From contig JAQBXY010000003.1 of NCBI GenBank assembly GCA_027623325.1, positions 1-64,000 on the forward strand: a DNA stretch of 64,000 nt, written 5' to 3'. Both the position numbers and the translations under genes were made by a program. Under the pieces are notes generated by a model that saw nothing but the letters and a program-made list of their open reading frames with translations, was not told where the DNA came from and made no database searches. Origin of the DNA: Gemmatimonadota bacterium. Lineage in GTDB: Bacteria > Gemmatimonadota > Gemmatimonadetes > Longimicrobiales > Gaopeijiaceae. Shown piece after piece: positions 1,920 through 7,591 of this stretch (its first letter is position 1; every line of letters begins with the position of its first letter).

Positions 1920-1995
1920 TCGGGACGGCCGGATTCGAACCGGCGACCCCCTGAACCCCATTCTCAGGTGCGCTACCGGGCTGCGCCACGTCCCG
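1920..1995 (-). tRNA. tRNA-Pro with an enlarged anticodon arm
   Basis: The acceptor stem CGGGACG/CGTCCCG, D-arm and T-arm (GCCGG-TTCGAAT-CCGGC) are all well paired, and the discriminator is A; CCA is not encoded. The gene is 76 nt, two more than the usual 74. The extra bases lie in the anticodon arm. Paired as a 6-bp stem it has a 7-nt loop AATGGGG with anticodon TGG. Paired as a normal 5-bp stem the loop has 9 nt, and without the extra GA the anticodon would be GGG. The partial copy at 2044-2174 carries an 84-nt insertion at the same point. The identity is Pro; which codons it reads is unsettled. Confidence 0.8.
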
Positions 1996-2001
1996 AAGAA
2001 C
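1963..2001 (-). repeat. 39-bp direct repeat, copy inside the intact tRNA-Pro
   Basis: Identical to 2142-2180. It covers the tRNA 5' half from the acceptor to the anticodon stem plus six bases upstream of the gene. The similarity ends abruptly on both sides. Confidence 0.9.
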
Positions 2002-2043
2002 TGCAAAACTACCGATTTGAACGGGGCTCGGGTACCACGGTGG

Positions 2044-2174
2044 CCCCTGAACCCCATGGAGCTCCGGTCGCCTTCGGCGATCCTCGCTCGTCTCGCGATG
2101 CACCTATTCCGGTAAGAACCACGACCGCCCGGGTCGCTCGGCTCAGGTGCGCTACCGGGCTGCGCCACGTCCCG
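2044..2174 (-). pseudogene. Broken tRNA-Pro copy split in the anticodon arm
   Basis: Read on the minus strand, 2174-2142 repeats the tRNA-Pro 5' half exactly through CACCTGAG. It is followed by 84 nt of unrelated sequence (2141-2058) and then ATGGGGTTCAGGGG (2057-2044), the tRNA's anticodon 3' half. After this the similarity stops, and only a loose T-arm-like GTTCAAATCGG follows. The 84-nt insert ends in a hairpin-forming module (GAGCGAGGATCGC…GCGACCGGAGCTCC) also found in the two elements behind tRNA-Ser genes. With no proper T-arm or 3' acceptor strand this copy cannot make a mature tRNA. It may be a relic of element insertion. Confidence 0.75.
2058..2141 (-). repeat. Short palindromic tRNA-associated element, copy P
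   Basis: An 84-nt insert in the anticodon arm of the broken tRNA-Pro copy. Its 3' third (minus strand, about 2089-2058) folds as GAGC…GGATCGCC-GAA-GGCGACC…GCTC. It matches the 3' module of the elements at 7054-7183 and 7333-7475. The 5' part (CCGAGCGACCCGGGCGG) is not shared, so the elements are mosaic. Confidence 0.6.
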
Positions 2175-2180
2175 AAGAAC
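2142..2180 (-). repeat. 39-bp direct repeat, copy in the broken tRNA-Pro
   Basis: A perfect duplicate of 1963-2001, with the two starts 179 bp apart. The perfect identity indicates a recent duplication or ongoing homogenisation. Otherwise 1996-2308 holds no gene. Confidence 0.9.
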
Positions 2181-7048: not shown

Positions 7049-7051
7049 TAA
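7033..7051 (+). repeat. 19-bp direct repeat covering the tRNA-Ser(GCT) 3' end
   Basis: Matches 7184-7202 at 18 of 19 positions. It spans the T-loop, the 3' acceptor strand and three bases downstream. The two copies flank the element at 7054-7183. Confidence 0.85.
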
Positions 7052-7053
7052 GA

Positions 7054-7183
7054 TTGGGTGGTGTGCAGACAGGCTTAGTGGGGTTCAACCCACGTGCTCT
7101 TCAAAGAAGAGCGCAGCGTGGGTTTGGCTCGGAACGAGCGAGGCGAGTGGAGAGGAGCGAGGATCGCGAAGCGACCGCAGCTC
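7054..7183 (+). repeat. Short palindromic tRNA-associated element, copy S1
   Basis: A non-coding element behind tRNA-Ser(GCT), about 130 nt and flanked by 19-bp copies of the tRNA 3' end. Its 5' module (7081-7131) opens like a T-arm (GGGTTCAACCCAC). It forms a large hairpin between AACCCACGTGCTCTTC and GAAGAGCGCAGCGTGGGTT. Its 3' module (about 7154-7183) is GAGCGAGGATCGC-GAA-GCGACCGCAGCTC, also self-complementary. Both modules recur in copy S2, and the 3' module recurs in copy P. There is no open frame that could code a transposase, so it would need to be mobilised in trans. Confidence 0.75.
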
Positions 7184-7202
7184 AATCCCACTCCCGCCGT
7201 AA
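7184..7202 (+). repeat. Second copy of the tRNA-Ser(GCT) 3' end
   Basis: A duplicate of 7033-7051 with one substitution (CTCCCT becomes CTCCCG). It directly follows the GCAGCTC end of the element. Confidence 0.85.
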
Positions 7203-7236: not shown

Positions 7237-7320
7237 GGACGGGTGGCCGAGTGGCTTAAGGCGCACGATTGGAAATCGTGTGGGCTCACGCCCGCGTGGG
7301 TTCGAATCCCACCCCGTCCG
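7237..7320 (+). tRNA. tRNA-Ser (GGA)
   Basis: Class II; acceptor GGACGGG/CCCGTCC; anticodon arm CACGA-TTGGAAA-TCGTG; variable arm TGGGCTCACGCCCGC; discriminator G. The 3' end is duplicated at 7476-7502 beyond a palindromic element. Confidence 0.95.
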
Positions 7321-7332
7321 TGGTTGAGTAGA
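7306..7332 (+). repeat. 27-bp direct repeat covering the tRNA-Ser(GGA) 3' end
   Basis: Perfectly repeated at 7476-7502. It covers the T-loop to the tRNA 3' end plus 12 bases downstream. Confidence 0.92.
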
Positions 7333-7475
7333 CAGGAAAGGTACGGGGGTTCGAACCCACGAGATCTTCGAAGAAGAGCGCAGCGTGGGTTTGACTCGAG
7401 CGGCAAGACAGGGAACCGCGAAGCGCCAGAACGGCAACACGCGAGAGGAGCGAGGATGCGAAGCACCGCAGCTCC
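7333..7475 (+). repeat. Short palindromic tRNA-associated element, copy S2
   Basis: About 143 nt between perfect 27-bp copies of the tRNA-Ser(GGA) 3' end. Its 5' module (7347-7398) matches copy S1 closely, including the T-arm-like GGGTTCGAACCCAC and the hairpin arms CTTC/GAAG and AACCCACG/CGTGGGTT. Its 3' module GAGCGAGGATGCGAAGC…GCAGCTCC matches S1 and P. The middle (about 7400-7440) differs from S1, again showing a mosaic build. It is non-coding. Confidence 0.75.
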
Positions 7476-7502
7476 ATCCCACCCCGTCCGTGGTTGAGTA
7501 GA
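7476..7502 (+). repeat. Second copy of the tRNA-Ser(GGA) 3' end
   Basis: A perfect duplicate of 7306-7332, starting directly after the GCAGCTCC end of the element. The copies start 170 bp apart. Confidence 0.92.
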
Positions 7503-7517
7503 GGTACCCGAGAATTC

Positions 7518-7591
7518 CGGGGCGTGGCTCAGTCCGGTAGAGCGCTGCGTTCGGGTCGCAGAGGTCCCCGGTTCGAATCCGGGCGCCCCGA
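7518..7591 (+). tRNA. tRNA-Pro (CGG)
   Basis: Acceptor CGGGGCG/CGCCCCG; anticodon arm CTGCG-TTCGGGT-CGCAG with a normal 7-nt loop; T-arm CCCGG-TTCGAAT-CCGGG; 74 nt. It provides a useful contrast to the enlarged tRNA-Pro at 1920. Confidence 0.95.

Follow-up and report, generated by a model that had tools for sequence, protein, structure and literature searches.

At one end of the 64,000-nt stretch of Gemmatimonadota DNA analysed here (hereafter the window), the minus strand carries a tRNA-Pro sequence interrupted in its anticodon arm by 84 nt, followed by a second, complete-length tRNA-Pro. The question raised by this locus is what the 84 nt represent and how a split and a complete copy came to stand in tandem. 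The reading that we favour, with a probability of about 0.6, is that the split tRNA-Pro is a copy of a miniature element which targets tRNA loops, is maintained as a DNA hairpin and leaves the tRNA rebuilt.

Organisation of the tRNA-Pro locus

The features of the locus, with the evidence on which each was delimited, are as follows.

2143-2174, minus strand: copy A, 5' half of tRNA-Pro(GGG), identical to 1995-1964
2059-2142, minus strand: 84-nt core in the anticodon loop (GCCGAGCG ... GGAGCTC), from alignment with 13 other copies
2058-2100, minus strand: conserved 3' module (covariance model R1, 62 bits; covariation)
2044-2057, minus strand: copy B', 14 nt of the 3' side of the anticodon arm (ATGGGGTTCAGGGG), exact repeat of 1961-1948
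1996-2043, minus strand: spacer between the split copy and the downstream tRNA, by direct reading; its length varies among genomes
1920-1995, minus strand: downstream tRNA-Pro with GA inserted in the anticodon loop (ARAGORN, Rfam, comparison with relatives)

Read along the minus strand, the order is thus promoter-side flank, 2174-2143, insert, C, ATGGGGTTCAGGGG, a 48-nt spacer and the complete-length tRNA-Pro, which begins 62 nt past the end of the core. Positions 2180-2142 and 2001-1963 form an exact direct repeat of 39 nt, itself contained in a 49-nt repeat of 92% identity, and the 14 nt at 2057-2044 recur exactly at 1961-1948. The upstream copy reads CACCTGA, then GCCGAGCG...GGAGCTC (2142-2059, 84 nt), then C and ATGGGGTTCAGGGG (2057-2044), and the 39-nt repeat and the 84-nt insert between CCTGA and ATGGGG, both reported in an earlier sequence-only reading, were recovered as described. 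A repeat of 39 nt is far more than chance would give, and an assembly error is very unlikely to have produced the split tRNA-Pro because five loci of the same type occur in different genomes.

Copy A holds the acceptor 5' strand, the D arm and the 5' strand of the anticodon stem, with CCTGA last. The split copy is a half gene, without T arm and without acceptor 3' strand, that stops shortly past the anticodon stem, and its RNA fold taken as a whole is no better than that of shuffled sequences (z -0.95). Upstream of copy A, the sequence (CTTACTTTCCCGG / CTTACTTTCCCGGTTCTT) corresponds to that which flanks the gene in relatives such as G005 and G007; the split copy thus occupies the ancestral position, the unit having been added within the gene.

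The anticodon-arm position is also that of group I and archaeal-type tRNA introns, and the sequence-only reading had named an intron-like stage as one possibility. An intron, removed from the RNA, fails on the half gene itself, since the T arm and the acceptor 3' strand that a spliced tRNA would need are missing and the host copy of such introns is a whole tRNA; most copies of the element in T loops likewise lack the 5' part of the tRNA, and the 84 nt have no Rfam intron match. When the insert was removed by script from all 109 copies, almost no tRNA emerged; ARAGORN found none in four of the five loci with the layout of the window, and the window itself gave only a 91-nt misfit. An intron is consequently given next to no credence.

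A two-frame IS3-type transposase (HTH_Tnp_1 and rve domains) is located at the start of the contig (window 231-1529, minus strand), less than 400 nt from the tRNA-Pro unit. Tyrosine integrase was not among the Pfam names of the five proteins near the tRNA-Pro locus.

Related units in the window and in other genomes

The insert had been guessed to be related to two other elements of the genome, S1 and S2, on the grounds that it ends with the same hairpin. A model search bore this out, with covariance-model matches at all three sites. S1 and S2 are located in a tRNA-Ser/Pro cluster.

7049-7199, plus strand: S1, T-loop type unit after tRNA-Ser(GCU) (sequence reading; model match)
7322-7490, plus strand: S2, T-loop type unit after tRNA-Ser(GGA) (repeat; model match; empty site in relatives)

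S1 is composed of an antisense T arm, a hairpin, a T-arm 5' half (7118-7126), the core (7127-7183) and a copy of the tRNA 3' end (7185-7199). In S2, the T-arm 5' half (7384-7394) precedes the core (7395-7474) and the 3'-end copy (7476-7490), and an exact direct repeat of 27 nt links 7306-7332 with 7476-7502. The RNA folds of the S1 and S2 units beat shuffles (z -4.7 and -3.8, respectively). The matches at 2058-2100 (minus), 7144-7184 (plus) and 7437-7475 (plus) had (rough) whole-genome E-values of 3e-12 to 7e-9; the three sites were among the sequences on which the model was trained. They are three of the four strong module copies that the model found in this genome (G000).

Using the same model on draft genomes, the module was detected in 58 of the 121 genomes of this Gemmatimonadota family (a family in the GTDB sense), covering 25 of 40 genera with up to 14 copies per genome, while being missing from many genomes of the same genus; only four carriers were found outside the family among 395 genomes sampled from the phylum as a whole. 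Fourteen core copies could be aligned along their length, with invariant GAGA, CGAGGAT, ACCG and AG blocks, and the core has a median length of 84 nt (middle 80% about 79-88 nt; 80 copies).

The core is directly followed by a tRNA or tmRNA segment in 93 of 109 copies, so that it lies inside the loop of a partial copy: in 88 cases the segment begins at the T loop of Pro, Ser, Arg, Cys, Gly or tmRNA and extends to its 3' end, and in five it is the anticodon side of Pro(GGG), the remaining 16 having no recognised tRNA segment after the core. Among the 80 copies with a delimited 5' end, the preceding sequence was GTTCGA (61), GTTTGA (6) or ACCTGA (5). In 60 of 61 cases the copy and its closest tRNA share a strand, and nearly all T-loop copies lack the 5' part of the tRNA. 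For 294 tRNA genes taken from loci chosen for such copies (the rates are therefore not genome-wide), a 3'-end copy was present within 400 nt downstream for 42 and a copy of the 5' part upstream for 6, as compared with 1 and 0 in reversed controls. An antisense arm of at least 9 nt corresponding to the tRNA 3' end is found in 26 of 77 T-loop type units (3-4% in controls), and several downstream units are placed after a terminator-like hairpin. Similarity between cores was 0.72 within a genome and 0.70 between genomes, which is weak evidence for spread inside a genome.

The model undercounts the element family, since it misses units whose module differs: in the interval that separates tRNA-Ser(GGA/GCU) from the following tRNA, G003, G011, G017 and G020 carry units of like construction whose terminal hairpins are quite different. 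At locus L079 (G008:C29, 600-1330), three tandem units of 232 bp follow an apparent tRNA-Cys 3' end, each made of tRNA 3' end, possible terminator, antisense 3' end and core, and no whole tRNA was found by ARAGORN within this stretch. Four further loci (L136, L155, L162 and L148) hold core-bearing tRNA 3' fragments that start near the anticodon loop, distant from an intact tRNA, and look like the displaced ends of integrated islands.

Loci with the layout of the window

Comparison with the tRNA-Pro loci of relatives, which the sequence-only reading had suggested, showed the same arrangement in four other genomes (G104, G127, G128 and G129), making five loci under three genus labels; the extra bases of the downstream tRNA were absent from the other four. 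The common plan of these mirror-type loci is a tRNA-Pro(GGG) 5' half, the core, ATGGGGTTC, 39-63 nt and a whole tRNA-Pro(GGG). In each of the five genomes, the split and the intact copy agree in 32 of 32 nt of the 5' half (read directly from the sequences, the search expression having fixed 30 of these 32 positions). These halves vary among genomes (GCAGTCCGG, GCAGCTCGG, GCAGCCCGG) while the pairs within a genome agree, and the flanks adjoining the paired halves mostly disagree within a genome. Such pairs may be either young, homogenised by gene conversion, or constrained.

This bears on the idea that the locus is a decaying relic, i.e. a chance duplication of tRNA-Pro that later received a single insertion. 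A split copy unable to make a tRNA and a scarred downstream copy would suit it; five genomes sharing the layout with identical 5' halves, and more than 100 relatives at other tRNAs, would not, and recurrence already contradicts it, which leaves it very improbable. Of the "insertion relic" initially proposed, the insertion is retained, the insert belonging to a recurring element that is also present at other tRNA genes of the genome, and the word relic is not fully apt in view of 5' halves kept identical to the intact copy in five genomes where the flanks mostly differ.

A sixth mirror case is located at L140 (G093:C574, about 930-1182). Here a nearly complete tRNA-Pro(CGG) lies upstream of the intact gene; its T loop houses the core, its 3' end is cut short and its anticodon loop (CCCCTAG) has been destroyed. 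A search for further anticodon-type copies with a short pattern and one mismatch allowed was noisy, control counts being equally high.

The downstream tRNA-Pro

The downstream tRNA had been described as intact with one extra A. Same-genus copies have an anticodon arm of the form CCTGA-ATGGGGT-TCAGG or CTGCA-ATGGGGT-TGCAG, with a 7-nt loop, and the window has CCTGA-GA-ATGGGGT-TCAGG, so the addition amounts to two bases (GA) before ATGGGG, absent from these relatives. Because of this GA, ARAGORN labels the gene TGG, although relatives identify it as the GGG isoacceptor. The anticodon loop of the downstream tRNA is normal in the other four mirror-type loci, the GA being particular to G000.

The GA scar is perhaps a conversion tract carrying the first base of the core, and the rebuilt tRNA-Pro(GGG) that bears it is probably impaired. 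Elsewhere the genome has a Pro(UGG) on contig C28 and a Pro(CGG) at 7518, both normal. Since a UGG tRNA can often decode every proline codon, the genome could plausibly do without the GGG isoacceptor, and the scar could be tolerated.

Structure and covariation of the 3' module

The 3' module is made of a GAGC/GCTC stem, a tandem G-A loop, GG/CC, a bulged A and a variable hairpin. Its 11 pairs are standard in 99.1% of cases over 100 distinct copies, and nine of them change on both sides, with 161 double-change cells versus 39 in shuffles (reached in 0 of 500); these figures lean towards the structure, to which the alignment was fitted, and the 13 copies aligned by hand agree with them. The covariation vanishes when the partner is slid by one to three columns. 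G-U pairs account for 1.0% of module cells, as against 5.2% in 260 tRNAs from the same loci, related cells being non-independent so that the p-value of this comparison serves as a guide only. Matched changes without G-U intermediates suggest a palindrome maintained as DNA, and favour a DNA reading of the terminal hairpin. In the internal loop, invariant G and A positions face each other (GA opposite GNA) and form a tandem sheared G-A motif, which could function in DNA or in RNA; the conservation of these positions would also suit RNA and to that extent speaks against the DNA-hairpin view.

The main rival supposes a small RNA beneficial to the host, co-transcribed with the tRNA and excised by tRNA-processing enzymes, the core of which binds a protein. 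A core structure kept despite much sequence change would be expected of it, as would tRNA-derived ends that stay identical in the manner of processing signals, and three 5S-linked repeats of E. coli (RrA, RrB and RrF), for which such a role has been proposed, give rise to transcripts that bind both Hfq and CsrA in vitro (PMC8144298). The near absence of G-U pairs, the many same-genus genomes without the element and the several downstream units beyond a terminator-like hairpin argue against it, as does the lack of known function for the other 19 E. coli repeats, in tRNA operons (PMC8144298). We regard this explanation as unlikely, if worth keeping in mind. No Rfam family matched the units, either at the gathering score or at E-values up to 5.

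Empty sites and proposed origin

The preferred reading, a loop-targeting element, draws on sites where the unit is missing. In G013, G011 and G004, the spacer from tRNA-Ser(GGA) to tRNA-Pro(CGG) is 20-21 nt long and ends in GGTACCCGAG / TACCCGAGTAGTC; in G000, G005 and G003 this same spacer end is found distal to the unit, after its copy of the tRNA 3' end. The unit is therefore an addition at the tRNA end which pushed the old flank outward, as happens with integrated islands. The anatomy, the recurrence, the single orientation, the two loop targets, the covariation, the empty sites and the identity between copies and neighbouring tRNAs can be seen in the sequences themselves; the mobility and function of the element are our inference.

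Writing a tRNA as A and B, split at the loop, with primes for copies, the T-loop type (S1, S2, E. coli repeats) reads A-B'-spacer-A''-core-B and the mirror type (the tRNA-Pro of the window) A-core-B'-spacer-A'-B. Both added segments correspond to one circle, core-B'-spacer-A', opened at different points. The element thus lies within the tRNA gene, while the unit supplies the missing half and the tRNA is rebuilt. Units would arise by insertion or copying at the loop of a DNA hairpin, their core would be kept as such a hairpin (as the near absence of G-U suggests), and they would persist through a low cost to the host. Both layouts can be reached if insertion is specific to the loop and restores the gene, or if a duplication occurs and the inner part is then lost. 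This second route counts against the insertion view, movement being read from layouts that tandem duplication and deletion could give identically; so does the restriction of the tRNA-specific antisense arm to about one third of T-loop type units (26/77).

The T loop and the anticodon loop are the usual crossover sites of tyrosine integrases in tRNA genes. The units might then be attachment-site debris, left by crossover of an integrase in the loop, with the cores as att arms of tiny integrative elements. Both loops observed here fit, and so do layouts that are circular permutations of one circle (core-B'-spacer-A'). Genomic islands similarly split their target in a loop, rebuild the tRNA and leave a displaced fragment (Islander, PMC4383910). 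They differ from the present units, which measure 150-230 bp, too little for a gene, hold no integrase and have a structured core that is similar across different tRNA targets, unlike the att arms of unrelated islands; moreover, the mirror type duplicates the 5' half, and islands commonly duplicate the 3' side. We consider this origin quite improbable.

As regards enzymes that could mobilise the loop-targeting element, a search for Y1 transposases gave no candidate: they occur in only 4 of the 121 family genomes and not in G000, from which an IS200/IS605 or RAYT transposase is thus absent. Elements of the REP/RAYT and IS200/IS605 types have in common with the present ones short imperfect bulged hairpins, presumably active as single-stranded DNA; they differ in that Y1 transposase is almost absent from this family and the present copies are tied to tRNA loops, not scattered between genes. 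The exact module was not found in viral contigs, nor was a stricter pattern, and 11 matches to a looser pattern had no tRNA 3' end and were read as chance, so that a phage origin was set aside.

Comparison with the tRNA-linked repeats of E. coli

E. coli has tRNA-linked repeats (TLRs; the RtT repeats, RttR at tyrTV), described by Egan and Landy 1978 and Rudd 1999, as cited in PMC8144298. E. coli K-12 has 22 of them, in which 18-19 bp exactly repeat the 3' end of the upstream gene (PMC8144298). At tyrTV, direct reading gave GGTTCGA-CTCGAGCG...CGAGAG...-AATCC followed by the tRNA 3' end, with an antisense copy GGGGAAGGAT upstream. The Gemmatimonadota units share this plan (GGTTCGACTCGAGCG, CGAGAG, the (A/C)ATCC junction and the antisense tRNA 3' end), the base preceding ATCC being A or C in both, and, like TLRs, they are tandem units with a partial copy of the neighbouring gene's end. 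Most T-loop type units, including S2 and (with one mismatch) S1, have a copy that starts at the T loop and stops with the tRNA, about 15-16 nt in all, and in S1, S2 and most copies the element lies in a T-arm loop copy, between GTTCGA and ATCC. TLRs stand in tRNA (or rRNA) operons, in tandem with an intact gene; likewise, the Pro copy precedes an intact-length tRNA-Pro, and S1 and S2 belong to the tRNA-Ser/Pro cluster. The Pro copy differs in duplicating the 5' half, upstream of the tRNA, and in using the anticodon loop. On these features the T-loop type units qualify as TLRs by definition, and the Pro copy, which falls outside the definition and shares the core, as a mirror-image variant.

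Differences remain: E. coli belongs to another phylum, the published E. coli TLR RNA families do not match the Gemmatimonadota units, and the 3' module (GAGGAT...ACCGCA) was not seen among the E. coli TLR units read. An earlier description of TLRs in Gemmatimonadota may exist outside the part of the literature searched.

E. coli TLRs have been known since 1978 without an agreed function. The Gemmatimonadota set provides comparative material missing in E. coli (a conserved core, empty sites, two loops, a mirror layout), and displays the element inside a tRNA loop, a tRNA-end copy matched to each tRNA and paired hairpin changes that favour DNA, which makes the choice between mobile element and small RNA directly testable. 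More tentatively, and with somewhat less than even confidence, the units could represent a new class in which a mini DNA-hairpin homes into tRNA and tmRNA loops in two mirror layouts and rebuilds the tRNA, E. coli TLRs being related; if so, the 45-year-old TLR puzzle would come down to a selfish insertion in tRNA loops.

Other observations in this genome

The fourth core copy of the genome (L045, G000:C21, 4943-4990) has no adjoining tRNA and lies inside an open frame, again before ATCC; this frame may resemble the C-terminal part of a transposase. Five contigs of the same genome (C6, C10, C15, C27 and C38) end less than 500 bases from a tRNA gene, perhaps as a result of an assembly broken by repeats beside tRNAs.
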